Source: Paragonimus westermani
Taxonomy: Eukaryota > Platyhelminthes > Trematoda > Plagiorchiida > Troglotrematidae
Length of the DNA stretch: 64,000 bases
NCBI GenBank assembly: GCA_008508345.1
Contig: QNGE01003311.1
Coordinates: 16,335-80,334, forward strand
Direction of reading: 5' to 3'
Part shown: in pieces, positions 1 through 53,400 of the stretch
Numbering within the stretch: position 1 is the stretch's first letter
Layout: each line of letters starts with the position of its first letter
Program-made: the position numbers and the translations under genes
The notes under the pieces: model-generated
The model's database searches: none
Seen by the model: the letters and a program-made list of their open reading frames with translations, nothing else
What the model was told of the DNA's origin: nothing

Positions 1-278
1 TCCTGAACAGACGATACAGTTCTCACTTAGGGAATGGGGCCCATATGTGAATATTGGTAAACAGTTCACGATGGAGCTCTTCAGTTTTACACATTTCACA
101 TTCTGTTATGTTTACTTGTGCACAAAATTCACAATCATTTGGAAAATCATGGATGGTTTATTTTAGCACATTCGAAGACAGACGTCTTCCTTTAAAATCC
201 ATGCGCAGTGTGGTTTTAACGTTTAAGATAACATTTGCCTTCAGGTAGACTTTCCAGCCAGCCTCTTTTCGAAAAGAA

Positions 279-324
279 GCTCTAGACTCGAGTTTCGCTC
301 TCATTAGAGCTCGTCAGTAGCGTA
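279..324 (-). ncRNA. Hammerhead ribozyme motif, partly decayed
   Basis: The minus strand has CTGACGA (consensus CUGANGA), a perfect 5-bp stem II GCTCT/AGAGC with AATG loop, GAAA, and the palindromic ACTCGAGT followed by C at the expected cleavage site. Stem I keeps only CTA/TAG before mismatches, so activity is doubtful. Confidence 0.65.
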
Positions 325-329
325 TATCC

Positions 330-405
330 TTGCCACGGCTGGGATTTGAACTCCGGCCATGCTTTTCTTGAGACAACCGAGTTGACCGGTGCGCTACTGG
401 CCTCA
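330..405 (-). repeat. tRNA-like SINE head (Pol III promoter remnant)
   Basis: Read on the minus strand it shows an A-box-like AGTAGCGCACCGG, then GAGTTCAAATCCCAGC, which fits the B-box consensus GGTTCRANNCC with one change. It leads straight into the HHR at 324-279. It does not fold into a normal tRNA and is probably an internal Pol III promoter of the repeat. Confidence 0.6.
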
Positions 406-8100: not shown

Positions 8101-8940
8101 AGGTCAATCGGAAAACAAAAAGTTATCGGCCTACCAGTTTGGATAAAAACAGTGAGATCTCCGAAACCGGCTCGTCAATCCTCTAACGCAGTATTGAGTC
8201 TTTTGTGAAATTGTAGTCTAGTGACGCCACTGTCATGAAAATACGTTTCTAAGGAAATTTCAAACAAGAGTGACTCATTAGGTTCGTTGCATGTGCTGGA
8301 AATAGGGAGACTAGGAATACCTTAATGTTTGTCGAACTGTTTAGACTTTTGGTGGGCAATGAAAGGTTTGGCCGACCACTTCTGGGGAAATTTACCCATC
8401 GTGAGTGCGTGGTTTTGGAACCTGACCCCACACACGCATCACGAACATGACTAAATCTGCACCCGACAGTTAAGTGATTAGCAATAACTCTGTTGGTTTG
8501 AGTGCGATTTCAATCTTCAGAAGATCACGCTACTCAGAGTTTTGGCCAAGAGACTTAAAAGCGAGCACCACAATTGTACTTAACTCTTTAGCGGATGAAA
8601 CCGATACGGTAGTCTTCCTTGAGCTAGACATTACAGAATGGACAATCATGAAAACCGGGTGAAGCGGACTACTCATTAGCTTGCACATTTTTAGTGAGCA
8701 ATCGTGAGATGTTAACGTAGGCTAAAACTGCGTACATCTCAAAAATGATGGTGAGATTTCTCAACGATTCCAGGTAGAGAGGTTGAATCGTCTTTGAACC
8801 GACGATAGAATAGACAGCCACTTAGTTTTACCCACTTATCTAGACACATCATCAAACGTAATGCACTACTGCACTTTGTTACCATTTGCTGGCTTACCGA
8901 ATTAGACAGGTAGCTAGGCTGACGTAGATCCTCCATTCAG
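2147..8940. other. Intergenic or intronic sequence without a recognised gene
   Basis: Only short open frames interrupted by stops on both strands. The one item I can support is the tRNA-like SINE at 6350-6430. Confidence 0.55.
6350..6430 (-). repeat. tRNA-headed SINE copy (second family)
   Basis: On the minus strand AGTAGCTTAGATGGTAGC resembles an A box, and TTGGTTTGAATCCAGTCGG a B box and T arm. The T-arm wording GGTTxGAATCCAGTC matches the copy at 35846-35925. Confidence 0.55.
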
Positions 8941-9210
8941 GCTATTTCGAAAAGAACCACCAGATTCGATGTTCGTTCTTGTCAATGCTCGTTAGTAGTC
9001 GATACCCTTATCATGGCTGAGGTTAGACCTCCGGCCACGCTTACATGAGGTAGTCGTGTTGGCCAACACGTCGTTGACTTCATGCTAGTCACGACTGAAC
9101 GCTCAACCACTTTTAACTGTGAGTAATGGGCAGGTTGACCGGTCGTCTCAATAGAGGACATAGTAGGTGTCTTTCTAACTGCAACCGATAACTCCACGAT
9201 TATGACTTCC
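8941..9210. repeat. Degenerate copy of the composite tRNA/HHR repeat
   Basis: Matches the layout of 247-579: on the minus strand a tRNA-like head (9001-9081) precedes an HHR remnant (8955-9000) whose core has drifted to CTAACGA and CGAAC. On the right, GGGCAGGTTGACCGGTCGTCTC matches the middle of the composite, and TAACTGCAACC may be the outer arm. Confidence 0.6.
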
Positions 9211-13348: not shown

Positions 13349-13873
13349 TTAACTTGACTGTGAATAAAACGTGACGCCGCAAGTGGCATTGGTTAAAACT
13401 TCCGAGATGGCGTCAGCAACATAACTCACCAACAGATAACTTTGGCCCCCTAGGTAATCCATATTGGTCTGACCATCGTAGTTCTGTTGTACAAATTCGT
13501 TGAAATTCAAAATCAATTCTCTGAACTGTTTTCGAATTAGTTGTTGTGCTATCGATGTCAGCTTTTGCTCAAGTGAGAACAGAGTATTCCTTTCCCCATT
13601 GTCAATTACACTATCTTGCGAATGTGGATGTGTAACCCCGAAATCAACTGTTTTCAATGTAGGAATAACGCTGATGAGGCCCGAAGCCCAAATGTGTTGC
13701 AAGGTTACAATAATGCACAAATGAGCTGTATTTGCACCGCAAAATTTGTACCGTCCTGGAGTAGTCAGACACTCAAGTACTTCATGAATAGTACGTTGCC
13801 TAATTGTGTGCGTTGAGATATACACTATAAGTCCGTGCAAACAAAATATAAAATCAGCGTTCGATTTCCACAA
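13349..13873 (-). CDS. Possible exon of an unidentified protein
   Basis: A 174-codon open stretch, long for this window. The best-looking part reads SLEQKLTSIAQQLIRKQF and then RELILNFNEFVQQNYDGQ: amphipathic, helix-like and of normal protein composition. A strong donor-like GTGAGT falls right after GGQSYLL (near 13430), and acceptor-like AAACAG lies before VDFGVTHPH. If real, the exon would therefore be about 13430-13660 rather than the full open frame. I do not recognise the family, and chance is possible. Confidence 0.3.
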   Translation of the reverse strand: MWKSNADFIFCLHGLIVYISTHTIRQRTIHEVLECLTTPGRYKFCGANTAHLCIIVTLQHIWASGLISVIPTLKTVDFGVTHPHSQDSVIDNGERNTLFSLEQKLTSIAQQLIRKQFRELILNFNEFVQQNYDGQTNMDYLGGQSYLLVSYVADAISEVLTNATCGVTFYSQSS

Positions 13874-15640
13874 GGACCGTTATGTCCACCATAAAGGTAT
13901 TCAACTTATTCCAAAGTCCTTTCACCCCGCGTTGCCCGGCCGACTTTGCACGACTGTCGGGCTGTTAGGTCGAACTATCAAAACTCTTATTGTTCAGTCA
14001 TTCTAACTACATAGAGCCACTTCGTGGTTTATTCTGGATCCCCTTCTCCCCATACATGACAAGCATTCATGGAATAGCCATTCCGCAGCGGTCGGATTTG
14101 ACCCAGATCACTTCGGCATGACCGTCGTAATATTCTTTCTCCATATTCAAAGATTGTGGTCAAAGCACATACGAACGTGGATTGGTGACGGCACTGTTTG
14201 TATAGTCCGACAGGCTGCTGACTCTAGAGCTGTTTATTGTGGTACATGAAATATTGTATATACGATAGGAAATGTTGTGCACTGTACATTGTACGATACA
14301 TTGTACATGGCAAACAATCCTGAACAAAAGCTCGTTGCATACACTAGTTGTCCCAGCTGATCAGCATTCCATTCGGTCGTTGTGCCAGTTCTGGACGTTC
14401 ATCCATTAATTTCTATACAAAGTGCGAGTGTAGATTTTATCGCCAACCCACCCAAGAACAGTCAGCTCGCTACCACCCGCCGATCTTAATAACGAACTGT
14501 CGCTGCCTACACAATGCGGCAGGAGTCCGCACACCAACCAAACCAACGTTACTAGTGACAGTCGATCATGTTTACCGGACGTATCGCTACTATTGTGTAA
14601 CCACAATGAAAATTTGTTTTACTTTTCTAAATCGATGGCTCAACAGGCTTGTTACTGTGCTTGTGTACTGAACAAAAGAGACAATAAACTCACAACACCT
14701 GAATGTGCCAACCCATAAACACCAGTATGTTGTAACATGTACACCTCCTGTTGACTTCAGATAGTCAAGTCAGTGAATATGCTGGAGCCTGCTTTAGTCC
14801 ATCAGCTTCAAAAAATGAGGCATAGGCCTTGGTTTAACTGAAGGAAAGATAGTCGCCTAATCATGAAAAGTGACTGTACCAATTTGTGTGAAGCATGCCA
14901 ATCACAATAAAATTGTATAGTACTTTCTCTCACGCTCTTTAATTCTTCTTAAGTGTTTGCCGGCGAAATTAAATCGACAAAATACCTACGAAAACACATC
15001 ATTCCCACTTTGGTTTGTCCCGCTAATGATTGATACGCACAAGTTCCACATGGGTTACAGAATTCGGTACGTAGTCTGAAGAAGTCGGATGGAACGTCCC
15101 TAGTACCATAACGGAAACCTACTCATTGAAAAACAAGTGATTTTCAGCATATATCATACAATTAAGAGTGAAGGAATGTTTATTTCGTACCAGAGACATA
15201 TCCAGTTTGGCCATGTTCATGATAATTACAACTGAAACGAGTGTGGTAAACTGGCCGTATCAACTTACTGGGTTAAGCTCAACATTCCTGATGTATTGCC
15301 AACTTGAATTTAACCAGGATCGCAGTCGTAGTTTTAACTGAGAGAATTTCAAAAACAAAATTAAGTTTGTGAAGCTAATCACGGCCAAGTATTTGTATGT
15401 GAGCGGTTATAGATGAGATTGAAGTGGCTCACAGATGAGTTTCAAGAGACTTCTATGTATGAGCCCAGGATCTAAAAACAGTAGCTCAGACTGATAACTT
15501 TTTTGTGGTAACAAACGTGACTTTGAAAAAGCTAAGTATTTCACAAACATGTAAACCGTAATCAAGTAGATCTATTCATCATCAACGTGAAAACAGTATA
15601 GGAAAAATGACTGTTTCATTTTGTCAGTCTGGTACTACAT
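13874..15640. other. No gene recognised
   Basis: A small run of repeated TGTACATTGTAC-like words occurs at about 14280-14310. Otherwise there is nothing I can support. Confidence 0.5.
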
Positions 15641-15790
15641 ATGTGGCAAGGATATGCACTACTGATGAGCTCTAATGAGAGCGAAACTCGAGTCTAGTGC
15701 TTCTTTGCGAAAACAGGCTGGCTGGAAAGTCTATGTGAATGCGAACGCTGCGATCAAATGTGAGTGATGATCAACTTGAAAAAATACTAC
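15641..15790 (+). repeat. HHR-bearing SINE-like element, 5'-truncated copy
   Basis: Contains the intact HHR and then the same tail as in 541-620: GGCTGGCTG, AAAGTCTA, GAATGCGAACGCTGCGAT, a GAGTGATG word and CTTGAAAA. It ends in a short A run. The tRNA-like head seen in other copies is absent, so this is probably the 3' half of the element. Confidence 0.7.
15656..15700 (+). ncRNA. Hammerhead ribozyme, well preserved (type I)
   Basis: Complete consensus core. Stem I GCACTA (15656-15661) pairs perfectly with TAGTGC (15695-15700). CTGATGA is at 15662-15668. Stem II is a perfect 5-bp GCTCT/AGAGC with an AATG loop (15669-15682), followed by GAAA at 15683-15686. Stem III is minimal: A-U and C-G pairs round TCGA, within the palindrome ACTCGAGT, and C15694 is at the cleavage site. 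Just outside stem I, GGCAAG (15645-15650) can pair with CTTTGC (15702-15707) across an internal loop, as in natural HHRs with peripheral contacts. A very short palindromic stem III is known from retroelement HHRs that act as dimers. Folding was by eye. Confidence 0.82.
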
Positions 15791-18700
15791 ATATGTGTTA
15801 CCAGTTTTCATTTTACATTGCTCTGTTTCTAGCTTGAGAATCGACCGTACTAGTTAAATTCCCGCCATTCGAAAATGCAATATGCATACATAAATTCATG
15901 AAAACAGTCAACAAGTTGGGAATGAAATGAACAAAAGAGCAAATATCTCATGTCAGAAATTCGGAATGAACAAAAATGTTCAAGCAATGGTTTTTGGCAT
16001 ATTAAGAATGTTCGGTGGAGAAAACGCTGTCAAAAAAATGTTATACCTGTCTGAAATTAACAAAATATTGAGTGTAGAAAAGTTGCCATTCTCGTAAAGA
16101 AAGAAAGATTATAAAAATGTCGTGCATAAATCTGCCCAAGGAGCCAACATTTTGTTGCGCGTGATATTTGGCTAATCACTTGTGCCATTTTCATTTTGGT
16201 CCACTCTTCGTCTTTAATGAAAAATTATTAGAACCAAGCAACTTGGCAAGCCGTTGCACGGCATGAAACGAATTGTATAATCAACACTCCACAGTGAGAA
16301 ATTATTGTATACAACGGAAGACAAAGATAAGGAGCTTGTTCGCCAAAAGCCAAGTTTTTAAGTAAGCGATAAGCTCACGTGATGCAGTACTGTCTTCCAA
16401 AAGTTGAGCTCAGACGCCAAGCAATGAGAGCCATGAAAGGTCGAAGGAAACCAGTATGCGTTCAACGGATTGTTACAGCGGGTAGTTGTATCGGAGTAAG
16501 TAGGCGTTGTGAAAACCAGTAATCAATTTTAGTTCGGTGCAAACTAAAACAACATAGAAAAAAGATGCAAACGAAATAAAAGGCTAAGGAGGAAAAGGTT
16601 GGAACTCGACGTCCGTTGAGTGTGATCGAACCACTCACCACCTTTATCACTCATCTTCTAAAGTAACTCTGCAATCCCACCCAAAGGGGATGACGCAGCC
16701 ATTGCACTCAAGTTTCCAGTGTGTGCTCCATCAATTTCTGCATGATTAACTACAAAATATTCAGCTGTTCACCTCACAGAAAGCTGTGCACAACACAGCC
16801 AGACTTATCTGAGAGCAGATTAGTATTAGAATCTTAGTAAACTGGTTGATACGATGCCAGATAGTCCAAACTATTAGACCTTTAGGTTTGTCCCAGTGAA
16901 AGTGACAGAACTCGCACAATAAGTAAACATTTCGGACGGGATTATGCTAAACCGTGCAAAAATTAAACGAAAAGTAGATGCCACCAGTAAGCTCACTTGT
17001 GTCATACGATAGACCTGAAAAATGTAACACTGCTATTACAGAAAGTTCAACTTGGAGTATCCCCTAGTGAAAAAGATTCTCAAACATCTACGTAAGTATA
17101 TCAGGTATGGTAGTTGCTCACTCTTATGAATTCCGGAGATTTCCTCTACCGGGCACGAAACACTTAAGAAACAAGGCAATGCACGAGGTATGGGAGCTGT
17201 TTGTTGAAAACAACTTCACTTCTTGTGGCTGTTCGTTCGTGAATGTCTTCTGGCTACAAAGTGTCGTCACCTTAATTTTAACCGTTGGGATGTAGAGTCA
17301 AGTTGGTCTTACGCAACAACCTTTGATCCCAGAACCTTACGTGTATTACTAAAAGGAGTTCATTTTCATTTTGATACATCAGTTATGACCTAAGTGCGTA
17401 GAGGTGTGCAGAAACAAATGACATGAACGCGTCACATGATTATTAGATTATACCCGTAACGACGCTGATGGCGATGATTACAAACATACTGATGGTATGA
17501 AGGAGGAAATTGATCATCAGGCTGCTAATAATAATAAAAACAATAATGTTTGAGTATACTTTGCATCGGTTGAATGCACATCGTCATATCCGACTAGAAT
17601 TTGAAGTTGTGAAGATGTTTAGTCGTCAGATATGCACTGATCAGGAACAAATGAGAAACAACCAATGATATCCGGGAAACAACGTTTTCAAAGTTCACAG
17701 ATATTTGTGCGAAATTTTTGCTGTTGTTCGCCTTTCTTGTTATTAAGGTTTTTGATGTTGCGAAATATTCTATTACAGTAATTTTTAATAATCGTTGGAC
17801 CTTCTTTCCCGATCATTTGAAGTCGATCGGTCGTTTTGGTAAGTTAACAAGAAATCCCATACCGTCTTAGAATAGACCAATAGAGATTATACAAGCAACC
17901 GGATGAATGAATTAATGGACTGGTGCTATTAAGCCCAACCCGTACATCCTGAGTACGTTGATACACTACTTGATGCTTCTGTGATGCAGTGGAGTTGAAA
18001 CAGCTGTCCGTCATCTCACTAGTGAACCCCGGAACCAAATGATCTTATTTTATACTCCGAACCTGAAAAGCATGTGTAGACAAACTCAAATCAGGAAACG
18101 CCACATGGCTGAGTGCACGAAATAAAGCTCAGCTAACAACTCAAAGGCTTCCTAAGGAAGCTCTACTTCTTGAATGAAAGGAGGTGCACTTGTGAAATTG
18201 CAGTAATATTACAAACAGGAGGTCGACAATTTCATTAGTCGTCATGAAGTAAAGCGTGGGAGCATAGAAAAGCCCCAACATTTGTCCACTAGCAAAGGCG
18301 AAGTGTGAAATTCATCATAATTTTTCTCGTGGCAAAATCCAGAATATAAAATGAACTTTCAATCCATAACAAAATTCGGCAATAGTATGTTTCATTCACT
18401 CTAAACAGTCCGGATTCGTACGCTAACCCACTTCCGTGTTTATCGTTTCGTTCTGCCGCCATCCAAATCTGCACGCTTCAGCTGCTTCCCCGTTCCATTA
18501 TATGCGTACTCAAAACAATCGAATCTCTCACCCACGCGTTCTCGTTCTACATATAGCACAAATTTTGCTTCTGGGTTCGTTAGGTACAACACGGTTAAGA
18601 AGTGAAGCGTGGAGTGTGGTGCTTTTGTATCAAACAGCCCACCTCAGTTTTGTTCACAAATCGCTGGTCAGTTCAGAATGTAACTTAATCAAATGCAGAG

Positions 18701-20515
18701 CAATGGTATATGAATATATATATATATTGCGTAAATTTTTTTCAAATCGAACGTTCTGCCGTCGTTTCCGGTACAGTACCCTCCTAAGGAAGAAACAACT
18801 TTGTAACACTTTTAATAGATGCATGGTTTTGCCAAAAACTAAGCAGATGATTTCCAGAGGAAAATAACACCATATGCCGATCAATCTACACTGGTTTTGT
18901 TCAGATGTTGTTTACCGGATGAACTGTTCGACTGTTCTAAATAACTTGTGAACTCAGCAGAACCTCGATAACCTTTTGTGTATCGATAATTAACGTTATG
19001 ATAAAAGATAGTATGGTGATAAAGACAATTCGAACCTTTGGAACTCTCTCATCCGATTGGGTAGAACAGTCGGAAGGCACAGGTTACTGTATGCGTTCTT
19101 TTCGCACAACCTCAGCACTCTTGTACATGTGACTAGCTAGAAATCAAACAGTGCAGATCACAAAGTAAATACCTGAAATTGTGTGTCCGCCCGGATTGGT
19201 AGTTAACCCAGTGTCAACAAGGCCACTTGGTTTTTCAGTACACACGGTGGATTAAGAACAATTATCGGCACTGCAGACAATGATCTGACACTGGCCTTGT
19301 AATGGGTAACCGATAAACGAAGTCGAACGACATTCTTGTTCAGTATCACTCTGTAAGCAACGATCAGTGTAGCACGCCTGCTGGCATTGATTTCAAGCGA
19401 TGTTTCTGTCCTGCAGCTGTAAACTTTCCCGTTACTGAGGGGAAACTGATAGACGTAATGACGTTTGGAAAAATTCAGAATACATATTCTTACCAGGCAC
19501 AACGGGTGCCGAAAATAACATTGGATTTTTCCGTATTGCACACTACTCTGTATGTGAAAGTCAACAAGCACCATGCAAAATGAGTTCTTCAACACCTAGT
19601 CTCTCAAGGGAATTTTATACACGAATATATACAGGGCTTTTTTAATGAGTGCAAAAACTAGCGTCTCACATTAGTATATCGGCGTATTTTCTGATACGAT
19701 AGATATTAAACTGTGCAAACTGCACCTTACATCCCCTCTCTACAGAGCTGCCTCAAAGTAGGAGCGTTCGAAGTGCAACCTAGATGTTGAACTGCAAAGT
19801 ATCAGATATTTTTTAATATAAAATATGAGTTCCATCGTTTGCTATATGAAAGTGAAGTTTGATTGATGAATGTTTGCACAGGCTATCCACCAACGGTACA
19901 TTCTTCTATCTACAAGGTCCTCTTAGCCTAAGTGGTGTGCTCAGAATTATCTCTTTATTTTAGTCCACACAGCAACTCTCGTGAAAATCTATCGGCAGAA
20001 GAATGCTGAAGGAACTGCTCTCCTTGTTGTGCGGCAACTAAACGTTTATATCGCTGTATTTCATTTCGCACTTCTAGATCCACAGAACTAGCCACACCAA
20101 GAAGGCAACCAGTCAGTTATATAGCCACTTTACGTGGGCAAGTGTATCGCCGTCGTTTTCATGATTTCTTGTGGTATTGTTGTGTTGTTTCATCTGAATA
20201 ACGGTTAGTTCCGCAAAGTGCTCATCTTCTTCAAGGATCTCAGCGAAAACTAGAACGCTACACTATACAGACACTGGTATGGTTACAGAAAGTTCCAAGG
20301 AATCCATTAGCACCCGTGTTCAGTAACACACGTCGAAGATACTTATTCTGGTAGTCAGGAATTTCGCTGATGTACTCATTCGAGAATGTCAAAACACTGA
20401 GTTCCCTCGATTTAGCACACCAGCGGCGATGAAAAACACCCGCGAATTGAACATTTCGCATAATATTTCCAAGGAACGAAGCGAAAAAATCAAAACATAT
20501 AAGATTTCGGGATGG
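15791..20515. other. No gene recognised
   Basis: Includes a TA run at 18715-18728 and an AAT-rich stretch at 17525-17548. Open frames at 18436-18867 (+) and 19203-19595 (-) have no motif I know and no supporting splice signals. Confidence 0.5.
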
Positions 20516-21292
20516 CAACAACAATAGAAATCGTCAACGATTGGGTTCACATGAAACGAAAACTGTTATCAGTTCTAGGGCAGACAAACTGCACGAGTCA
20601 ACAGTTTATGCACACATAAGGCAGGACGGCGGACACTGATTAACATAGTCCCGGAGAATGCAAACAATTTGGTGTTCCGATTACACAGTAACACCTGAAA
20701 CGAGTTGGCGGGATCAACAATGTGACCGGTTCCCGTGATGGGCTTGGCAATGGATGAAGTCGGTTTCGGTTCAATCGCTCTGTTGCCATCGCCTGTTGCG
20801 TCGTCGCGTGCACCAACCATTCAGACATATGTTCGGCCATACATTGTCGTACGTACCGATTCGTTCTGCCGATGTAGACATCACCGCAACTGCAAGTGAA
20901 CTGATGGATTACATGTGAGACGGAACATCTCGATAGGTCACGATTATGAACAAGCTGAGCGACACTCCCCGTTGTGAGCAGCAACCGCAATTCAGCCGCA
21001 GGGTGTATACGAGTTAGAGCAGGTTGTAATTTTCGATTTAAGTCAATTGTGATATGGTCCCCTTTGAAAGATAGGTTCGGAAAACTTGCCTCTTGATAAC
21101 CGTACTCACGGCAGTTTTTTTATCCGCGTATCCGCTATGTATTCCAATGTTTTGTGTTCGTGACTGAAGAGGATATACGGAGTGTTAACCTTTTGTGATT
21201 TATGTCTTCTACTGCTATTGATGAACTGGATCAAGGGAACTCAGTGGTTTGAATTTTTCAAGCGAATTCTCCTTGCACATTCAACGCTAGCG
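20516..21292 (-). pseudogene. PLE 3' half with GIY-YIG endonuclease, left arm of inverted repeat
   Basis: Reverse complement of 27245-28020, with only about two clear differences in the body (near 21212 and 21230) and a few more at the inner edge. It encodes LSFKGDHITIDL, the PLE block just before the endonuclease, then SVSHVIHQFTCSCG and DVYIGRTNRYVRQCMAEH (GIY-YIG nuclease core). A frameshift near the end of that motif moves the C-terminal part (GHIVDPANSF, PALCVHKL) to another frame. The same shift is in the other arm. The reverse transcriptase is absent: the copy is 5'-truncated. Confidence 0.85.
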
Positions 21293-22590: not shown

Positions 22591-22884
22591 TGTTATGTCT
22601 ACACCACGGATTGAAGTGAGAACTGAAGTGATGCAGGAAGATCCTAGTGTATCCTGGCTGAGCCAGCGTGAAAAGTGCATTACATCAAACAATGAACAGA
22701 GTTTACAGCGGGCGGATCGAGGAACCAATAACAAGCCCATGGAAGAAGACAAATCATGTCTGGGCAGGCTAACCAGAGTGCGCATGTGAACTTTGCAACC
22801 GACAGCAGTGTGACGGGAAGGTTCACGTGAGTGAGCGATTGTCTGTGTTTGCACGCGTGTGCATGCACGTGCAGGAACGTAACA
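22591..22884 (-). repeat. Gypsy 3' LTR
   Basis: 294 bp, bounded by TGTTA and TAACA. It aligns without gaps to 26927-27220 with 23 mismatches counted by eye (about 8%). Similarity continues for a few bases outward (to about 22899), so the true border may be slightly further. Confidence 0.85.
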
Positions 22885-23110
22885 TAGATGGGCCGTACAC
22901 ATCTCTGTTAAAAAAAGTAAAGTACACATGTACGATTGCCTACAGGGATTTATCTGACGTCTCTGGATTTGGGGGCGTGTGCGTCTTAAATATCTTCCTT
23001 TAGGACTGCCCTCCAGCGGTGGTGCATTAAGTGGTTCAGGTTCGGGAGTTTTTACTTTTGCTATAGAAAATGTATCAAATAGTGTCTAGACGCATTCGAG
23101 TTATCATCCA

Positions 23111-25822: not shown

Positions 25823-26914
25823 CTAAGGGCTGGCAAGTGGGTTCCCGAATATTGTACCATGTTGTTGGATGTATCCATCGCAGTATCGAGTTGTAATTTT
25901 ACCGGAAGATAAGTGATCAAAATAGTAAAAATGTGCGCAAATAATGATTGGCATTACCAGAGGTAAAAAAACGACATTTGACTGTCTTCGGGAATGATTC
26001 TGTAACTGGTTTCTACCAGATGTAGAACAACGGCCTTCATTGTGCCCCAAACAGCCACATTCTTGACATTTGTGACCGAAAACGAGAAAGTCGTGTGAAA
26101 TGCCATTCATCGAGGTGCCAACAAGCTGATGGCGGGGGTTGCCAACTCGTATTTCTCGATCCACTGTTTGCTTGTGACTGTGTCATTATAAAGTTTTCAG
26201 CCAGTATCACATCACGTGTAACATTTGTGAATCCTTCTTCAGATTTACTAGTCGGAGATATTCAGAGGTCAGTTGCTGCAAGGAGGAGAATTGTGTAACT
26301 GGGTTCGGGTATCAGCATTTGTTGCAGTTGTGAGGCCGGAAACAAAAATCAGTGACTTGAATTGATCGTCTGTTATCTTTCCCAACTGAAATCGTTCACA
26401 TTCTCTGTCCACCGATCCCGAGTATAACACAATGTCTTCGTCCGACCGTCGTGCAATTTTCAAACAATTGTAACGTATATTGAAAAGTGATGTGCGTTCT
26501 CCAAATATAGTTGAAAGTATGGAGACGGTGTCTTGTAAACTATAGTCTAGAGGGTGATTTGTTAGAATAAAGTTGCAACATTGAGTGTGCTCGTTAGCAC
26601 TTAATTTCTGCATCACGAGGCGCACTTTAGCTGACTCATCCAACCTTGTACCATCAACAACAAATATAACCTCATAACGTCTCTACCATGAAAGAAAAGT
26701 GATTCCGCCTTCTGAATCATATGCAAACACTTGAATGTCATTGGTTTGTAATTCCTTTAATTTGGTTTCTTCTGAGATGCTGGGACTTGTCGGCTGGAGG
26801 GAACGTCTGTTCGTTAAAAGTTCCAATTGTGTTGAATCTGCATTTGCTTATGAATTTGAGCCTGCTGTTGCAGCTGCTGTAATAGATGATGGAATGATGT
26901 GTATTCAGCCATAT
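25823..26914 (-). pseudogene. Gypsy gag with CCHC zinc knuckle
   Basis: Begins MAEYTSFHHLLQQLQQQ at 26914 with a glutamine-rich start, then shifts frame. The capsid-like part at 26269-26643 reads DESAKVRLVMQKLSANEH and later QLGKITDDQFKSLIFVSGL, typical of CsRn1-like gag. After a stop, the knuckle CQECGCLGHNEGRC (C-x2-C-x4-H-x4-C) lies at 26027-26068. Broken by at least two frameshifts or stops. Confidence 0.8.
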
Positions 26915-26926
26915 CCGCAGCCAAAC

Positions 26927-27220
26927 TGTTATGTCTACACCACGCATTGAAGTGAGAACTGAAGTGATGCAGGAAGATCCTAGTGTATCCTGGCTGAGCC
27001 AGCATGAAAAATGCATTACAGCTATCAGTGAACAGAGATTATTGAGGCCGGATCCAGGAGCTAATAACAAGCCCATGGTAAAGGACAAATCATGTCTGGG
27101 CAGGCTAACCAGAGTGCGCATGTGAACTTTGCAACCGGCAGCAGTGTGACGGGAAGGTTCACGTGTGTGAGCGATTGTCTGTGTTTGAACGCGTGTGCAT
27201 GCACGTGCAGTAACGGAACA
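26927..27220 (-). repeat. Gypsy 5' LTR
   Basis: 294 bp, the partner of 22591-22884. The inner end is TGTTATG and the outer end is GGAACA, decayed from TAACA. Similarity runs on to about 27238. The gag ATG at 26914 is only 13 bases inside, and a possible primer-binding site (TGGCTGCGGATATGG on the minus strand, 26910-26924) starts three bases in. I cannot assign its tRNA. Confidence 0.85.
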
Positions 27221-27244
27221 TAGGTGGGCCACCGTATAGATAGT

Positions 27245-28020
27245 GTTAGTGTTGAATGTGCAAGGAGAATTCGCTTGAAAAATTCAAACCACTGAGTTCC
27301 CTTGGTCCAGTTCATCAATAGCAGTGGAAGACATAAATCACAAAAGGTTAACACTCCGTATATCCTCTTCAGTCACGAACACAAAACATTGGAATACATA
27401 GCGGATACGCGGATAAAAAAACTGCCGTGAGTACGGTTATCAAGAGGCAAGTTTTCCGAACCTATCTTTCAAAGGGGACCATATCACAATTGACTTAAAT
27501 CGAAAATTACAACCTGCTCTAACTCGTATACACCCTGCGGCTGAATTGCGGTTGCTGCTCACAACGGGGAGTGTCGCTCAGCTTGTTCATAATCGTGACC
27601 TATCGAGATGTTCCGTCTCACATGTAATCCATCAGTTCACTTGCAGTTGCGGTGATGTCTACATCGGCAGAACGAATCGGTACGTACGACAATGTATGGC
27701 CGAACATATGTCTGAATGGTTGGTGCACGCGACGACGCAACAGGCGATGGCAACAGAGCGATTGAACCGAAACCGACTTCATCCATTGCCAAGCCCATCA
27801 CGGGAACCGGTCACATTGTTGATCCCGCCAACTCGTTTCAGGTGTTACTGTGTAATCGGAACACCAAATTGTTTGCATTCTCCGGGACTATGTTAATCAG
27901 TGTCCGCCGTCCTGCCTTATGTGTGCATAAACTGTTGACTCGTGCAGTTTGTCTGCCCTAGAACTGATAACAGTTTTCGTTTCATGTGAACCCAATCGTT
28001 GACGATTTCTATTGTTGTTG
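27245..28020 (+). pseudogene. PLE 3' half with GIY-YIG endonuclease, right arm of inverted repeat
   Basis: Same content as the left arm in the opposite direction: LSFKGDHITIDL, SVSHVIHQFTCSCG, DVYIGRTNRYVRQCMAEH, then the same frameshift near 27710, with the C-terminal part GHIVDPANSF and PALCVHKL in a second frame ending at 27961. It starts within a few bases of the Gypsy 5' LTR edge. It could be the 3' remainder of the PLE at 21690-22590, but the RT palm between them is missing, so an independent truncated copy is equally possible. Confidence 0.85.
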
Positions 28021-28940
28021 ATATCCCTATTTCCAGACAGTCGACCAGCGAAAATTCGACTCACATGTGGTATGGGAACTCGCTCTTCGCTTACCACGTG
28101 AAATCCTCTAACCTATCTATCCAAGATGGGCATCCACAACGTAGGTGGGTGGAAATCTTGGTAATCCAAATTTTGAGTAGTACTTCTGTTTGGAGGATAA
28201 CCGTTATAAAATTCCTCTTATGAATGCATTCGTGCTTTGCCTAGTTGAGTGACTAATGGGGTTGGTTTGCATGTGCTTCTATTAGCCGACTGATGTGATA
28301 GTGAGGTTTGTAGAGATGTTACGCTGATCGATACAAAGCACTATACCCGAATTATGTTTGTGACTTTATCGATTTCCCCAAACTCTTGTGATCTTTCGCC
28401 ATGTTGTGATGGGTGCGTAGTCGTCACAACGGAATTCAACTGAAAACCAATCAATATTTTCTATTTTCGTGAATGGTATTAAAAATGCTAATGACAACTA
28501 TGACGATGACAGAGAATTGAACAGGAATGAACGCTTCTCCTGTACACCTCTACGCGGTGAAGTTGCCTAGCTCATTTCTTGGTGATTTTATCGACCAGGT
28601 TTATTGAAGCGTAAACACTACCTCTGACATGTAGTTCATGTCGGTACCAGCCTTTGTAAGCCAAACGCAGGTGGTACTTTTAACTGTGCCACCACTGTTC
28701 TCTTTAGTTCACTCTCAAACCCGTTACGATTTTTTCATTCCGACCTTCTTGTTACTCATGAAGAAAAAACATATGACAGTTTACTGTTTTTCGACGACGG
28801 GATGGCTCAACAACACGAAATGCACAACAAGCTCACTTGAGGCGGTCAGTATTTACAGATTTCCTCTTTTGTGCCCACTACCCACATGCCAGTTCTAATT
28901 CGAACACTCTTTAACGCAGCCGGACAATTGCACCAATTTA
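28021..28940. other. No gene recognised
   Basis: Some short open frames on the plus strand, none with a motif I know. Confidence 0.5.
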
Positions 28941-32099: not shown

Positions 32100-33970
32100 T
32101 ACGAACAATGTATTTATAAATTCTGTCTTGAATTTGAAGGATGCTTTGCTGAAGGCTTTATCCCTTGGGCCCAACTTTTGTTGTTTGCATTGTTGAGAAC
32201 AAGCAGCTTGATTCAGCAGTTCATTTTGCAATTTTGTATGACCAACTAGCCGCACTCACTTCATCATCAACTTTAAACGAAGAAAGACTAAAGTCACTTC
32301 GTTCTCTCAGTAACCAAACCATACTCTACAAGTAAAACAGCTTTTAAACAAGTAACATTTAGATATAATAAATGTTTGTATAGAAGTGAACGCATAATGC
32401 TTTTCAAGCCAGTTAACGAAACAGGAGTCGTCATAATGAACGGGACTGATTACACTGCCGAAACGGATAACATACTGGCTGACATTTTGAGGTCCATGAA
32501 GCTGAATACGGAGAAAGACAAATCACCGGTTACAAAAAAGACGATATGTGATGCATTGTGCTGACTAAACCAAAAAGGTGTAGTTGTAGTCGAGCACATC
32601 CTTCCAATTGGAACAATAATATTCATGTTACAAGCTCACAAACAAGGTTTTCTCTTTAGACCCGTTTTAGATTTGTGCAACTCGAATTACCATGCTCTAG
32701 CTGAAAACCACATTGATTTGTTCGAATCCGTCAGGTTGGACCTAGCAATGCACAGTTTTCGGGACACGTATCAGTTCATCGACGCAATACAAGATGTAAA
32801 CTTAAACGATGAAAGAATTTTCTAATTTGGTGTCATTCCCTTATTCACCAACGTGCCTTTACATGAGACAAGTGACAACGTGTACAAGTATATAGAATGT
32901 AAAAACAAACACGCGGGCATCCCAAGGGATGAAGTAAGAGAACTGCAAGTGATTTACTCTGTTAAAGCTCATTTTCTGTCTAACAATTCAATCTACCGAC
33001 ATAAAGATGGAGTGGCAATGGACTTGCCTTCGAGTCCCCTGTTAACTGATGTTTTAATGAACAGAGCGACTTGGTGTAAACATTAAACAGCTTACCTTAT
33101 ACAAACGCTACGTTGGTGATGTTTTTTGCTGTCAATGAGGATTTCAAAATGAGCAATGTTATGGCATCTTTTAACTCAACCTACAACAGTATTAAATTTG
33201 TCAGGGAGTCACACAACAACCGCCGAATAAATCTGTGGGATGTTGACGTATTAAGAACAGAAGATGGTTCAACCTAACGAAAATCATGCAGGAAACGGAA
33301 TTAGAGCTGTCAGCACATTCACTCTGACAGCTTCGTCCCGTTAAATCCAAAGCGAAACCTCAGGCGCTATCTGACGGGTAGGATGTGACTATTCGCAAGC
33401 TGAGCTAGGGTTTTTAAAAGAAGTGTTCATGTAGAGTGGCTACCCAATGCAGTTAATTTCGAAATCGATGCAGGCGGTAGAGCTGAAATTCAAGCCTCCC
33501 TCTGTAAATAAGAAATTGGCATTTATTAGTCTGTATTTCACAGCAGACCCTATGGCCAAAGCTGTCACAAGGAAGCCCAAAATATCTGTTGAATCATCCC
33601 ACCTTGCCGTTCAACTGTGTGTAGGTTTCCGTTCAGCACCCTTTATCATGTCAAAACTCGAAGATAAACTTCCACGTTCGAAAACCAGCCACTGTGTGTA
33701 TTCATTTGTTTCCTCGTGTTGAGCGCTTTACATTGGTTGTACATTGGTTGTCTGATAGCGCATGTGAAAATCATCCTGCATGGTTGAATAGTGGTGTGAC
33801 TGCTGCTTATTTGACCGACACCAAAGGTGCCTTTCAGATTGTCTACTAGGTGCCACGAAATCGGTCAAAAATGATGGGATTCCGAATGTTGATCGTTGTC
33901 AAGGCCATTGGTATCCGGTTCCCTAACCCTGACTTCGTTCGGAAGGTCATGTGAACACTTAGTTTCCACT
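32100..33970 (+). pseudogene. Nearly full-length Penelope-like retroelement, inactivated
   Basis: PLEs copy themselves with a reverse transcriptase and a GIY-YIG endonuclease. Blocks in order, across frames: KALSLGPNF near 32155; DSAVHFAILYDQLAALTSSS near 32215; NETGVVIMNGTDYT near 32415-32460; RPVLDLCNSNYHALAE near 32660; FTNVPLHETSDNVYKYIE near 32845-32895; KDGVAMDLPSSPLLTDV near 33005-33055; the catalytic site RYVGD at 33106-33120, where YVDD is expected; YNSIKFVRESHNNRRINL; SFVPLNPKRNLRRYLTGR; then the endonuclease with SHCVYSFVSSC, a stop at 33719-33721, ALYIGCT, HPAWLNSGVTAAYLTDTKGA and VPRNRSK. The Asp-to-Gly change and several stops make it dead. Confidence 0.85.
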
Positions 33971-34150: not shown

Positions 34151-34970
34151 TGTTCTACTTGAACCTGAACACCATTTCAATTGAGATCCTCATTTTGTAT
34201 TTTGAAAAATACAGCAGCTATCTAATAATTTTTTTCAATAAATCTGCATACTATGAGACTCAATTTCAGTCACATTCTAAATAGTAAAAGAAACACGTTG
34301 ACTTGCTAATTAGCGTATATTTTCAGCGAAAAATATATCTGTACAAAGTACGATTGTTTGGATTTCGTAATACAGTAATTACCATAGCAGACGAACAACC
34401 CAGTTTGTGGTGTTGACGAGATTATAGAAAAAGTCGACAGAACTTTGCATCATTCGCAAAGGCAACTTGACTTACAGTCAATGGAAATGGTGGTTATATG
34501 ATGCAATTGAAATCAACACATTTGGCAAACCTAAGGTCTAAACAGTTATGAATAAAGTCAAAACGAGGAAGAGTGCCTTGGCGATAACCGCAAACCAATT
34601 CTTTATTAGAATTATTGACCGGTTTGTCTATTTAAAGCAGCTCATTCCCTTCAGAAGTTTGAACAAAACAGTTAGAAGACCGAAAATGATAGATGTAAGT
34701 ATTTCGTATTAATTCGTCGGTATTAAATTTACAATAACGTGAGAGGACTTTCTTTATCGAACAATCAGGGGGCAGGTGGTATAGTTAGTCGGTGGGTTAG
34801 GAAAGGTCACTTAGTCAAGGGAAGGGGCAAGTTTACGAGCAAGTTTACGGTCAATACCTGAACTTCAGTAGTTTCACACTGGTCCATCACAAACGTGTTA
34901 CTACGTTACCTGTTACTACACAATTCACACAAGCAGGACGAATCTGTACACGGGAAAGTCTTGCGAGGGA
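34151..34970. other. No gene recognised
   Basis: Spacer between two PLE copies; may contain decayed 5' parts of the second one, but no block is readable. Confidence 0.5.
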
Positions 34971-34979
34971 ATTAGACTT

Positions 34980-35534
34980 GATCCGAACAGGTGATCACAA
35001 TGAGTATAAAAGAACGTTTATACAGAATTGTCTTTTAAAGGTGATTGTAGCATGCATCAAACAACTCAAAGACTAGTGAATTCGATTAAACGAACATTTA
35101 ACGAAGCGGAACTCTGCGTATTAGCTCGGACCCAGAAACTACCTTACCCTTCAATCAAAGAAGGTCAACCTGTCGGTGCCACCTCACATTGTGTCTACCA
35201 ATCTACACGTTACTGCGAAGAACGTTACACAGGCAGAACCGAGAGGTGTTTGATCTGCAGAATGAAGAAACATTTGCTCAAATGGGTGCAGAACTCCGTA
35301 TTACCGACGAACGGCATTGTCGTTGAAACACGCAAGCAACCAGTGTCCGCAGTCACAGGACACGTCCTGACCACTGGTCACGTTATCGACTCAATTTGTG
35401 CATTCAGAATCCTATTACGTCACTCCAATCCAAGATTCTTGCGGTTTGCTGAGGCGGTCGCAATCAATCGACTGAAGCCAACCTTGTGTGTTCAGAAACA
35501 ATTGCTCGTAAACTTGACCCTTCCCTGGACTTAG
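34980..35534 (+). pseudogene. PLE endonuclease fragment, 5'-truncated
   Basis: Starts with NVYTELSFKGDCSMHQTTQR after an in-frame stop, then an open frame to 35534 with SIKRTFNEAELCVLARTQK, SHCVYQSTRYCEERYTGRTE (GIY-YIG nuclease, usual form YQFTCSCGxxYIGRT), MKKHLLKWVQN, VTGHVLTTGHVIDS and LRFAEAVAINRLKPTLCVQK. The endonuclease frame itself is unbroken for about 165 codons, but the CSCG cysteines and the YIG triplet have drifted and no reverse transcriptase is attached. Confidence 0.85.
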
Positions 35535-35845
35535 TGACCACTCTTCACCCACCGATTGACTATCCACCATGCCCACTAACTGTTTGATACAAAAAACCTT
35601 CATGTTTTGTTTATGTTGCGCGGCCAATTTGAACGATGAGGACGAAGTGAGACCTAGCGGGCATAAGTGCGGGAGAAGAGATTTGAAAAGTAGCCTAATA
35701 TTAAACAGGAAACAAGTCGCCTTGGAAACCCTGTAACGGTGATCGAGCGAGTCAGAACAATGCCTGTCGGTACATGCAGTACAGCAGGTGGGGAGCTAAC
35801 GGACAACACAGTAACCTAGAAAAGATCCAACTGTGGAAAATCTGG

Positions 35846-40115: not shown

Positions 40116-42984
40116 TCAGCTATTTTCTGTAATTTCCCTCTCATAGTTCTGGAAGTTTGGATCAAAGTTTCAGTGCAGAAGTTGGTAAGTCGGTTCACTA
40201 CTGTAAAGCGAACGGGCAGAGCTACTGAATAATGTGAATGGACGAAAAAGATTTGTTTCCAATGATAACTTCTTATCGCAAATTTCCTCATCACCCTCCG
40301 ATGGTTACATCCGTGCGAGTTTCTCAAATATCTGATATTTCATATACGGAAAGAATATCCTAAACTGGACCATACGGTACGGTGAACAGCAAGTGACAAG
40401 CATGATTCTGCCTATCCATCTAACTTCTCACATTTGCCAATCAAAATTGCTATACTCAGACGATTTGTCAACAACCGAACGGACGCCTATTGAACAATCT
40501 TGTTCATCCTCAACACCACATTTTACAAGACATGGTTAACTAATACTTACGCATACGCGATACTGAGGTCAGTTGGGACTGTTGCTGTCATTCAGTGTAT
40601 GCGTCCAATATGATGAACGGTACGTGTTACGCAAACCTGAGAAGTCAAGTCATTGATGAGGCGAGTGACATGTTACGAATGGTCAACCCAACAAGGGTTA
40701 ACAGATTCAACATACAGGGGTTGCAACTTTTTTACTGTGTTTTTAGATAAAAATATCAACTCCATGTTACCCGGTGCGCGATAGAAATGGTCACTTCATT
40801 GCAACTGTATTGAATGCACAACTAATTCTCATCAAATACTGATTTCAAAAGTTATTTCAAATCACTTGCGGCGGCAATAGATGATTCGTTTGCTAAACTG
40901 CTTTATAAAACACGATTCACACTATATAACGTCTGAAAGATCAGTCGTTACTGGAATGAATACTTTTACGATCTAAATTATGGGCAATTTCCGCAGATAT
41001 TTTTTTAAACCGCTTTCTAGAGGGTGCTCACAAACTCCTCTGACATCTCAGAATGCGAATCGTCGTTGCGTGATTAATTTGGGGACACTATGAGCTCTGC
41101 TGACCCAGAATTCAACTACACTAACGTTCCAGTTTAAACCAGACTTGAATCTTGCCAGCTCCAGGAGCTTGAATAACACTAAATGAAGTTTTGACTGCTG
41201 TTCTTAAAGACAGGAGTGTATGTTATTCCATAGCACAAGCAACCTATTGTCGCCTGTGAGGCCAAAAATGGACTTAATAGACAGCTGGTACCATTGGTTA
41301 CATCCTACCCGGCTGTTGATATCCAATTTCCGTGTCTTTTAATGGAAAGCCTGAGTCTCCAGATAGACTTGCAGTCAGAACTATACCCCCAGCTTACCAG
41401 GGACAGCTAACAAGGACAAGCAAGTTAGAAACCAAACCGATCTGAAAAATTCATTCATTTACATGAGCGATACTCAGATGTAGTCGAGTAGTGCACTGGC
41501 TTATTAGAGCTGCTTACCATATGATTAAGTGCCACTTTTGCCACATTGGGTCAGTGCTAGCTGGATTGTGATGACGAATACAAGCACGATAAGTTCACTC
41601 TATCCACTTAATTCCTCAGGTAGGGGTCAAACCTAGCCAAACTACAACAATCAAGTGTGATGCTTATTGCTGCTCAACAGTTATCCATAACAGCTGTGTA
41701 AGATCTATACACGAGCAACATTCCGATTGTTCTTACCAGTTACATCCACGAAGTGATAGTCGAATGGGTAAGACAGAATAATAGAGTTTGCCTAATTGGC
41801 AATCGTGACTCGGTTCTAGGGTGTGTATTATTATGGCACCCTTAATTGTTGCAGTTTTGGTCTTCAAAAGCCATCTCGGAATGTAGTTCAAGATTCAGGT
41901 GTGTAGTGTCAACACGGTACGGTCCACAAACTGCAATCCACACGCAGAGGTATATTTGAAAATAAATTTGGTTCTGGCGAGTAGTGACACTTGTTTAAAT
42001 CTGGCCACAAAGCAGATCCCTCGAAGGTTTTCCGTGCTGTTTGTCAGACTATGAACAAACACACTAACTTCTTCTGAAATGCTAGCGATACACCCTGAGA
42101 AACCACCCCCGTGTCCAGAAGCAGTTGACAGTGAAATAAGCACTACGTTGAAAATACACTGTAAAGAGACCGGTCAATAGTTATGGTTCACTCTAATGCC
42201 TCATCCCCCCAATGTTCATTGCTTGTTATCCACACTTTCCTACTGCGTCCATTGCCTATATCGATTTCTTGTAAGCTGATTAGAAATTCAAATATTCAGA
42301 CAAACCGAGCTATGATTGTTAGTTAAACAAACCCCACTATTCTACCTGTGGGTACCCATTCCATTATTTGCTCGGTTATAACTCCGTGTATTAAACTAAC
42401 AAGAAAGAACGAAATGTTGCTCCAGAAGGCATTTTGCCTGACAATTTTGACCTTATTCAAGTTCATAAGGAGACAAAACTGTTTCATACCGTTATCCGAC
42501 GAGCATGGAAAACGCATTCCGAGATGACGATACACCCGATCAACGCTGAGAGGGATTATCTAATTCTTTTCAACCTCAAGAAAAGAGAATGTGACTTCGA
42601 TTGAGAATCAAAAATCAGTACGTAGTCGGTAGTGATTGTAGGATTGGCTTTTAGAACAGATAGGGCGATCAGTGGCAACCGCGTGACACGAAAAGACGCA
42701 AACGTCACCCGATGGCCAGTCGTCAGAGTGGTAAGTTTTGGACACGGACTGAAGAAAAGCCGGAAGTAGAAAGTGTGCCGTCACTCATTTTCGACGCACA
42801 ACGTGCTGTGCATGCGTGACCAAACACGTAAACAACCATTAAGTCACTTCTGAAACTACTCGAAAATGCAACCAGTTCGAATTAATTTCAAGGGTTATGT
42901 TTACAACCGAGAACTGTTTAAAGTATAAGCTAAACATCACTCACAGCTGATCGCAGCTGTTTCAGTCCCATAGACCTTCCAATA
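40116..42984. other. No gene recognised
   Basis: Stop-rich on both strands; nothing supportable. Confidence 0.5.
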
Positions 42985-43400
42985 AGCCCCGTTCGAAAAA
43001 AAGCAATGTGCTCGAGTTCCGCTCTTGTTGGAGCTTGTCACTGGCGCGTTAATTTACCACGACAGGGACTGGAGCTCAGGCCACGCCTTCATGAGGCAAC
43101 GGGTTGACCATTGAGCCACTGACCTCACATTAGATACCAGTGAATCATCACATATAAGCGCTGATTAGGTTGCCCGATCGTATGGAGAGGAGTAAGCAAG
43201 TGTCCTGTTAGCTCCAATCAATAACCCCATGACCAGGACTTCTCCCTAAGTGGAAATCACAGAAACCATTGAACTCGTTGGGTTGTATGTTGACTGATGG
43301 TAAGTAGTAGGTGATTTGGTTGACATAAGGGACTGACTAGAATGCCTATTGGAACGCGATAGCTGCGATCAATCATGAGTGGTGCTCCACTTATATCAAC
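42985..43400. repeat. Degenerate copy of the composite tRNA/HHR repeat
   Basis: The minus strand carries a tRNA-like head at about 43060-43130 (AGTGGCTCAATGGTCAACCCG, then a drifted B box GAGCTCCAGTCCC) and an HHR remnant at 42990-43050 (GTGACAA, CGGAACTCGAG). On the plus side, CCTCACATTAG, GCGCTGATTAGGTTGCCCGATCG and, much later, AGCTGCGATCAATCATGAGTGG match the middle and tail of the 247-620 copy. Both HHR cores are broken. Confidence 0.6.
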
Positions 43401-50445: not shown

Positions 50446-53400
50446 CTGAATAGAGAAGCATAATGAGAGTAAAGAATCAAGGTCGACGGTTTTCTGCTAC
50501 ACTTCACGCACAGCCATAGATTGTACATGAGATCAGATGGCAGAATTTTACACTGCCCTCACGCTCTCCGATCCCAACCATCCGGGTTCATATCGGATAT
50601 GGAATGAATGGGTGGGGCCAGTAGTGACCTAAAGCAAGACCTACAATGAAGTATGTTCGTTTGGATTCCCTGATCTCAGCCATTGCGGCGGGTTAATCTG
50701 AACAATAATGTGGCCACCCAACCCAACAGTGTACAAAGTTGAATTTCGATTTAAAAATATTTGAAAAGTGGATTACAACCCAAGTAGGAAACGTTACCTT
50801 ACGTCTGGGATAGGCAACTTATGGCCATTAGTTATCAACTTGAAGGCTGTGTACACCGACCAGGGATGCCAGCATGAAATAAGACTGACGTTCAGACAGT
50901 ACAAATAGGTGCGATTAAACATTTGGAAAATGAAACGCACGAAGAGCAATTTAAGAGTTCAACTGACTGATCATTTAGATGATGCTTTGCAAATGACCCT
51001 ATCCCACCTGTCGCTCGCTATTGAACGACACCTGCGTTACAAACAGCACCAAGCAACATACTAATTTGTTCGATCTATAACTTCACAGTCTCAAAGTTGT
51101 TTCAATAAAATAACCATAATTAGTCGATTACAGTTCATCATTACTAAGTTTATTCACTAGCTGAAGATGAATGCCCTCTACTGTGCGCTCCATGAAATCG
51201 CAAGAGAAGACTGCCTGCTGTCCAACACAACCAGAGACCGACTTCCTAATAAGAATGATAAATTCGTCGGAGAAAATTACAGGTCCACATATTGGATAAA
51301 AGAGACTAACAAAAACACATTAAGAGCAGAGGAACACTGACGTCTCAGGCAGAATGTCAGGGAACCGGTGAAAGTGCAGTCACAGAAACAACCACCGGTG
51401 CCCAGAAAGATTGATCGCGATTTTTGCGCTGCATTTTAATACGCACGTTCAAACACAGCCGTTTTTTTCCAAGTTTGGTAATTTAAACAGCAAGGTGAGT
51501 GTTCACCTTAGGAATGTGACAATGCACATCGATTGAACAATGTGTAACGGGACCGCGGACATTAGCGAAAGTCATGTTTGTCAAAAAGAATGGCGTAGTT
51601 TGTCACCTGTTATATCGCAACCTTCCTCACTAAGCAAAACCAGGATAAGAGTCACTATTCGGTCCAGTTAATCTCATGTTTAAGCACTAAAGCTAGGTCA
51701 CATGTAGGTTGCGTATTACCAGAAGCAGCGACCTATGGATGGAGTAGTTATTAAAGAGCTAACCCAGCTTCGTGTTGAAGATTTACACTTGTCCTCTGCA
51801 AGAGTTGTGATTCAAAATCCAGCCACATTCAATGGAGTTCCGGGCGCTCACTAGACTGTCTGGAATGTTGACCATTGCAGACCGTCAGAACTTGACTGTA
51901 CAACTCTAGTCTATGTAGTCAGAAGCCTGTGCGGATACCTGGCCAGCCCCGCACCTAGAATAAATAGAGCCCACGAGTGGGAACGGTCACTGTGTGATTA
52001 TCATTCATTATGCAATAAAAATCTGACCGGCCTTTTAATTCCTCTGGTTAACATTTTCATATTTCTAGGTAGTTGGGAATTCGACGCAGTTACAATTAAT
52101 TGCAGCCTTCGCAATCAGAGGGACTTTTCACTTCCGAAAAGAAACATCACACTCGAATTTCGATTTCTTGAGTGCACTTCAGAAATGCACCCCTCCTTCA
52201 CAGCCGGGATTCGAACTGCGATCCACATTTTTATGAGATAATCGTGTTGACTACTTCGTCACTGCTTTTTTAGTATGCACAGCTAAATTGTTTCACTTAT
52301 CGCTGGCATGATGCGGGTGGACGTATGCATGCATAAACAAAAGCGGACAAGTTGGTTCAGTGAGAAAGTTGAAAATTTGCGATTGATGCTATTTTCCGTC
52401 CAAAACTGTCTCCTTCATCGAGAAAACGAATTTACCCTGTCAGATTGAGCGGAAATGTTCTGAACAGTCGAGGGGCAACTTCCGCCATTTCTTTTTTACG
52501 TGTTCGACTACTACTCCGTTATGATTCCTTACCTTGACTACTAGTTTTGGTAACTGTCTCTTGATCTTTTGATTCTAGAATGTTTGTAAGTCGCTATGCG
52601 CCAGATCAATATCCTGTAATTTCTCCCTTTTCGGAGGGGAACAGAGTTTCTCTTTGCACCCGTCTTTTGGTCTGACGTGGTAGCAACTAACGGGGACAGT
52701 CACATTATGCACGGGACCGAGATTTCCCACTTTCCTTATTACGAAGGGAAGAATCCGATTTCTGTCAAGCGCATTACTACTCCGTGTTTCTCGAGGGGTC
52801 ACAACAACCCATCAATTTCGACTCTGTGAACGGGAAATCAACAATAACGTGCACGGTAACAAACACGCCTTCCGGTAGAGACAGAGTACGGGCCGGTCTC
52901 TAAACCCTGATGAAATGGCAGCAGTACTTGTGAAATCGTGGGCGTCACATCAGACAACTAACACTGACTGATTCGTCGTACTTATAGATTACGTACGGAT
53001 TCTCATTTTGCAGACAAATATAGGTGAACCAAACAAAACAGAGAAAGCAATGTGCATTTCAGACGAAGATGGAGAGACAGCAAAAAATGGCGAAATGAGT
53101 AGTGTTTAGTACAGCATGCAAGTTAATCGTCACAACGAAATGATCTTCATAATTAACTAGTTCCAAGTAACCGGAGCAGAAAAATATACGCTGCGATATG
53201 TTAACAGTTCGTTCACTCTCATCAGTGACAAAAGTAAAACATGCTAGTTATATGTGTCATACGAATAAGAATAAACAGTTACTAGAAAGGTCTATAAACA
53301 TAAACATAAACGTATTACGTAGTGAGGACCATGACAATGAAGAAAGTAAACAAAGTGGTAATATGTCGCAATATTTCTTCCTTCCGTTTTGACAGTAGCT

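Follow-up and report, generated by a model that had tools for sequence, protein, structure and literature searches.

A 64-kb window of Paragonimus westermani DNA, by which we mean the whole stretch of 64,000 nucleotides that was analyzed, contains a real, intact-looking hammerhead ribozyme (HHR) in a headless SINE copy (copy A), and its self-cleavage is predicted from the sequence. Copy A very probably represents a single insertion of a tRNA-headed SINE family in which, as in the schistosome element Sm-alpha, a type I hammerhead separates head and tail. The features of copy A, all on the forward strand, are as follows.

15633-15645 (+): 5' target-site duplication TACTACATATGTG of copy A, 13/13 identical to 15785-15797
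15646-15784 (+): copy A, headless SINE insertion (ribozyme region, tail and A6), from the duplication bounds and a family profile match
15646-15708 (+): hammerhead with possible outer stem I and internal loop, by base reading
15686-15693 (+): palindrome ACTCGAGT, stem III or, by cofolding of two copies, predicted 8-bp dimer helix
15785-15797 (+): 3' target-site duplication TACTACATATGTG of copy A, 13/13 identity

Hammerhead motif

Base-by-base reading placed the type I core and stems I, II and III at 15656-15700 (+). The inner part of stem I, GCACTA/TAGTGC, pairs 15656-15661 with 15695-15700 (6/6 Watson-Crick) and is followed by CTGATGA at 15662-15668. Stem II, GCTCT/AGAGC, pairs 15669-15673 with 15678-15682 (5/5 pairs) around an AATG loop, and GAAA occupies 15683-15686. 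Stem III consists of two pairs, both formed (A15686-T15693 and C15687-G15692), within the palindrome ACTCGAGT. The cleavage-site C is at 15694, so the predicted cut falls between 15694 and 15695. The features of a type I hammerhead, namely CUGANGA, GAAA, UH at the cleavage site and three stems with stem I open, are thus all present in copy A. These readings bore out the preliminary description, which had claimed the conserved core bases (CTGATGA, GAAA and the cleavage-site C, each confirmed base by base) as well as stems I and II of 6 and 5 bp, respectively, and a minimal stem III inside the palindrome (by direct reading).

Beyond an internal loop, a candidate outer stem I pairs 15646-15650 with 15704-15708 through five pairs, including one G-U. 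The second of these pairs is formed in copy A only (one of the three family copies with letters there), and the remaining four are formed in the two to four copies with letters at those positions. The internal loop of stem I and the AATG loop of stem II of copy A are candidates for a loop 1-loop 2 tertiary contact. As a separate observation, the four bases TCGA in the middle of the palindrome (15688-15691) are invariant in all six aligned HHR copies, although the adjoining columns vary.

We assessed the significance of the motif with a strict type I descriptor, which demanded exact CTGANGA, GAAA and UH together with stems I, II and III of at least 4, 3 and 2 bp, respectively, on either strand. 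It returned one site in the window, that of copy A; when the window was shuffled 200 times with its dinucleotides preserved, no site appeared. Rfam gave no match at gathering thresholds in the whole window; the best family, RF02275 (Hammerhead_HH9), scored 39.6 bits, below its gathering score of 52, at 15643-15717, covering model positions 1-77, that is, the full model with the outer stem I included. The preliminary description had taken the lack of an Rfam match above threshold as evidence against a ribozyme; literally there is none, yet the match at copy A is highly significant (E 9.4e-9 for 401 bases, E 1.5e-6 for the window). The second RF02275 match in the whole-window search is copy B of the same family at 262-335 (-), with 26.5 bits and E 0.024. 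A mir-462 row at 33291-33343 in that search (E 0.11) was set aside as unrelated and at chance level. Folding, also proposed as a check, lent weaker support in its plain form (z -2.09 for a 46-mer, z -0.39 for a 61-mer).

The score under the Rfam gathering threshold might be read as chance resemblance to the hammerhead consensus. We hold the probability of this to be negligible, given the descriptor result (0/200 shuffles), the homologous region in six copies and a majority sequence that is intact even when copy A is left out, and we rejected it on the first and last of these grounds.

Copy A and its family

Copy A is a 139-bp insertion with the ribozyme motif in its 5' part and AAAAAA immediately before the second TACTACATATGTG; its 5' end may be as much as 3 nt further upstream, since target and family have GTG in common. 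The perfect 13-bp duplication and the A6 end are the signature of one target-primed insertion. This LINE-type SINE signature, comprising a target-site duplication of variable length and an A-rich 3' end, is present for copy A only, and we found no convincing target-site duplication for the six other copies (B-G). Since copy A has no head, it is probably unable to drive its own transcription and is probably silent on its own.

Searches with blastn and profiles identified seven family copies in the 64 kb, six with the ribozyme region and one (copy E) with the tail only, so that our whole sample comprises six HHR copies in one window. Some flank was included in the profiles, so that only approximate ends can be given for copies B to G.

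213-419, ends approximate (-): copy B, tRNA-like head, HHR (core intact, stem I 4/6) and shortened or diverged tail; profiles and RF02275
490-620, ends approximate (+): copy C, headless, HHR core intact, stem II 4/5, stem III 1/2; blastn 490-620, profile 482-636
8862-9096, ends approximate (-): copy F, head, decayed HHR and diverged tail; profiles
42906-43141, ends approximate (-): copy D, head, decayed HHR and tail; profiles
43327-43399 (+): copy E, tail only, with no recognisable HHR or head; profile built without E, from 43327, E 2.1e-7
52058-52281, ends approximate (-): copy G, head with good B box, decayed HHR and tail; profiles and box test

Where a copy had itself gone into a full profile, its E-value is circular; the independent evidence for family membership is pairwise and from part-profiles. 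With the region of copy A as query, blastn found B, C, D and E. A head profile built from B and D recovered F (E 3.6e-8) and G (E 2.4e-5), and an HHR profile built from A and B recovered C, D, F and G (E 1.7e-16 to 2.0e-5). The head-only profile marked four places above the inclusion threshold, all four with a ribozyme region. In each of these headed copies (B, D, F and G) the hammerhead lies between head and tail; A and C are headless. The claim that the hammerhead sits in a SINE-like repeat is supported. Exact repeat matches elsewhere were absent from prokaryote genome contigs and from viral contigs, as expected for an animal repeat. The adjoining copies B/C (213-620) and D/E (42906-43399) are oppositely oriented, which holds for both close pairs.

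The tRNA-like head

The heads were examined with A-box and B-box patterns. A and B boxes at fitting spacing were found in heads B, D and G, equalled by 5, 4 and 1 of 1000 shuffles, respectively, and in the four-head majority, for which none of 1000 shuffles was as good; head F fails this test, with 318 of 1000 shuffles as good. ARAGORN at its default found no tRNA in the window. At a relaxed setting of 80 it called a tRNA in head B (one of four heads) versus 1 of 400 shuffles, and at a setting of 60 in all four heads versus 52 of 400 shuffles, with anticodons that disagree across the heads and two majority versions (Leu-caa, an unassigned one and Gln-ctg). The Rfam tRNA model at E 10 gave no match in B and G, the two of four heads tried, and the only Rfam family matched by head B was the tRNA-like mascRNA, at a chance-level E of 7.3. 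On these sequence features the head is tRNA-like and probably a Pol III promoter. As to the tRNA-like head ascribed earlier to the other copies, a homologous head occurs in four of the six HHR copies and its boxes exceed shuffles in three of four (not F).

We also considered tRNA 3'-end processing as the origin of the headless copies A and C. In the relaxed ARAGORN drawing of head B the head ends after GTGGCA, and homology in copy C starts right after this point (490). Copy A keeps at least three more bases, so an exact cut at the head end misfits it. That reverse transcription halted at the folded head is the simpler account, on two copies that decide nothing. No copy among the seven begins at the ribozyme cut; homology in the tail-only copy E begins downstream of the cut site.

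Conservation of the ribozyme among copies

Three of the six copies (A, B and C) have an intact HHR core, and only in A are the core and all stems unbroken. With A left out, the majority of the remaining five has a complete core and stems I-III, and copies D, F and G, the most diverged, give a majority that keeps CTGACGA and GAAA; the majority sequences without A were taken from an alignment built with A in it. As the majority without A is an intact hammerhead, the source element probably had one.

Standard pairs make up 78.7% of paired positions across the six copies versus 34-52% with the partners slid. Shuffling letters among copies gives 77.6%, with 172 of 500 shuffles as high, and there is no excess of covariation across the six copies (165 of 500 shuffles as high). 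Conservation of the core columns does not significantly exceed that of the remaining columns (permutation p 0.07). This pattern is the expectation for neutral decay from an intact source, with no evidence of selection after insertion.

The same data bear on whether the family is a relic, dead today, in which copy A is intact merely through less decay and nothing is transcribed or cut now. Broken pairs or core in five of the six HHR copies, the missing head of copy A and the lack of covariation would all fit such a state, which we rate as a serious possibility, only a little less probable than its opposite. It is compatible with the SINE reading given at the outset and is no argument against a working ribozyme in the source, considering that copies A and B differ at 5 of 63 aligned HHR-region positions and that the majority is intact.

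Monomeric and dimeric folding

Using nearest-neighbour energies, which leave out tertiary contacts, we computed an ensemble probability of 0.0003 for the native monomer of copy A versus 0.15 for the HH9 consensus, and the native form is not the minimum of the plain monomer fold. Cofolding of two copies, run without a shuffled control, gave a double hammerhead as the minimum, both for two 45-nt copies (-34.1 versus 2 x -12.7 kcal/mol) and for two 63-nt copies (-51.1 versus 2 x -21.2 kcal/mol). The two halves of the predicted structure are joined by an 8-bp ACUCGAGU helix, in keeping with the dimer form that had been suggested from the palindrome. Axolotl hammerheads with a weak stem III are described as cleaving poorly alone and well as dimers (PMC7229834, in excerpt), a likeness to the axolotl retrozyme in which the dimer of the present family is a prediction. 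The copies found here are not in tandem, so that a dimer would need two transcripts.

One reading that would follow from such folding is a self-limiting SINE, in which the weak stem III would restrict cleavage mainly to transcript pairs joined through ACUCGAGU, mutual cutting would occur only at high RNA concentration and cap retrotransposition, and headless copies, among them A with its start at the head/ribozyme border, would be escaping products. We regard this as a long shot. If true, a dispersed repeat would carry a ribozyme that acts in trans and senses concentration, unlike the dimers of tandem copies described in the papers cited here.

Genes and other repeats of the window

An alternative is an intron-borne regulatory ribozyme domesticated by a host gene. 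There is precedent in the amniote intronic HHRs (PMC6155905) and in SmPoMuc introns, which contain a schistosome-type HHR accompanied by A and B boxes (PMC2576457), both as excerpted. Against this, no gene was recognised near 15.6 kb among the seven open frames run against Pfam, and the pair counts and core columns carry no signal of constraint; we rate domestication as very improbable. Fourteen open frames of at least 130 aa were noted in the window, and the seven run against Pfam were taken from those other than 18427-18867 (+). For the frame nearest to copy A, 13349-13879 (-), Pfam gave no match, and a search for relatives at E 0.001 found none.

Several other elements are present. Arms at 20509-21289 and 27247-28027 form a 781-bp inverted repeat (99% complementary) with the same 159-aa open frame in each arm; this frame has no Pfam match, and by eye we take it to be like GIY-YIG sequences of Penelope-like elements. 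The frame 35010-35534, also with no Pfam match, is a candidate Penelope-like element: seven of its nine relatives are Paragonimus westermani proteins, 71-83% identical over parts, one of them named GIY-YIG domain-containing. Around it lies a 94-bp inverted repeat (34749-34842 and 35502-35595, 80% complementary). A direct repeat of 300 bp (22591-22890 and 26927-27226) is 92% identical, and an open frame at 26269-26682 (-) contains DUF7083 (PF23309, E 9.8e-11). Pieces of an ALG11 mannosyltransferase-like gene lie at 58463-60855 (-); the frame 60004-60855 (-) matches Pfam ALG11_N. Among the best 120 of 128 matches of this frame, flatworms rank highest (58% for the top, unnamed sequence), the named relatives including Fasciola gigantica (54%), Heterobilharzia (53%), cestodes (40-48%) and the trematode Echinostoma caproni (43%). 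These matches and those of 35010-35534 point to a Paragonimus-like trematode as the host.

Comparison with known systems

The preliminary description had contrasted this repeat with the schistosome SMalpha repeats on account of its tRNA-like head. This contrast fails, as Sm-alpha is itself described as tRNA-derived with A and B boxes (PMC2770079, PMC4918200 and PMC2576457, in excerpt). According to these excerpts, Sm-alpha is SINE-like with members from tRNA-Gln, and Sj-alpha is also a hammerhead-bearing SINE-like element (PMC2770079); the schistosome repeat contains a full tRNA (PMC4918200); and A and B boxes are aligned with the hammerhead (PMC2576457). The described architecture, in which boxes stand beside the hammerhead, is the same as that of the present family. 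Activity is reported for the SMalpha and W-element hammerheads (PMC8490949, in excerpt). The likeness to Sm-alpha extends over a head related to tRNA (tRNA-like in the present family) with Pol III boxes, the type I hammerhead, the lack of coding capacity, high copy number and the trematode host (PMC2770079, PMC4918200, PMC2576457 and PMC8490949, as excerpted). It is one of architecture as described, and the host lineage is another; the ARAGORN calls here are Leu, Gln or none at relaxed settings. A palindromic short stem III is also found in Sm-alpha. Schistosoma japonicum Sj-alpha, compared by description only, is alike as a SINE-like element with a hammerhead motif (PMC2770079, in excerpt). 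Since the family has the same kind of parts as Sm-alpha, we think, by analogy, that it works like that element.

The source element would probably have been transcribed by RNA polymerase III from the A and B boxes of its head, and its RNA would have been reverse-transcribed by LINE-type machinery in a target-primed manner, which we infer because copy A has a 13-bp duplication and an A-rich end. Copy A would derive from a cDNA ending at, or a few bases from, the head/ribozyme border, leaving it with no promoter of its own. Were the + strand transcribed by read-through from a neighbour, the RNA would be cut between C15694 and T15695; in vivo, cleavage would be slow as a monomer and better with two transcripts paired through ACUCGAGU.

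RF02275, which represents an amniote intronic motif, is the best covariance-model match over the full model length and shares with copy A the core and the same four stem II pairs; copy A differs in its score under the gathering value, a shorter stem III region and its location in a dispersed repeat.

The metazoan non-LTR retrozymes of coral, mussel and axolotl likewise have a type I HHR in a short non-autonomous repeat, and the present family could be one of them, spreading via tandem copies, double self-cleavage and circular RNA. Its headed copies (about 207-236 bp by profile span) lie within the 170-400 nt of PMC7229834, and the excerpted text of that paper also fits a duplication of more than 4 bp and a possible co-occurrence with Penelope-like elements, for which the frame resembling Paragonimus proteins, one named GIY-YIG domain-containing, may be relevant. 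The tRNA-bearing schistosome repeat is moreover counted among putative retrozymes (PMC4918200, in excerpt). The window, however, holds no tandem arrays: the seven copies are dispersed, with close neighbours inverted only, and copy A is a colinear, A-ended single unit that is not permuted. The Pol III-like head with its A and B boxes also misfits the seeming lack of promoters in retrozymes (PMC7761336, in excerpt). We therefore consider a retrozyme unlikely.

The minimal HHRs of Penelope-like elements resemble that of copy A in a very short stem III, and dimer cleavage has been proposed for them (PMC7761336, in excerpt). Copy A differs in being an insertion of its own with a stem III of 2 bp and a tetraloop, and tandem HHRs as in Penelope-like elements are absent from the window. 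As to a location within pseudo-LTRs, copy A is bounded by its own target-site duplication. With no tandem repeats in the window and a score under RF02275 gathering, we file the element under neither retrozymes nor RF02275, and the SINE reading remains the one we prefer.

Among the matches listed, titles and abstract openings of open-licence papers contain no hammerhead in Paragonimus. With the present family, the hammerhead-bearing tRNA-SINE architecture known from schistosomes is also seen in a Paragonimus-like trematode, a hint that among trematodes the union of a ribozyme with a Pol III-type head may be old or may have recurred. The family also offers a small, countable system, in which the 5' ends of genomic copies record the form of RNA that was reverse-transcribed, whether uncut, headless or ribozyme-cut, a record relevant to the role of the ribozyme in the element.
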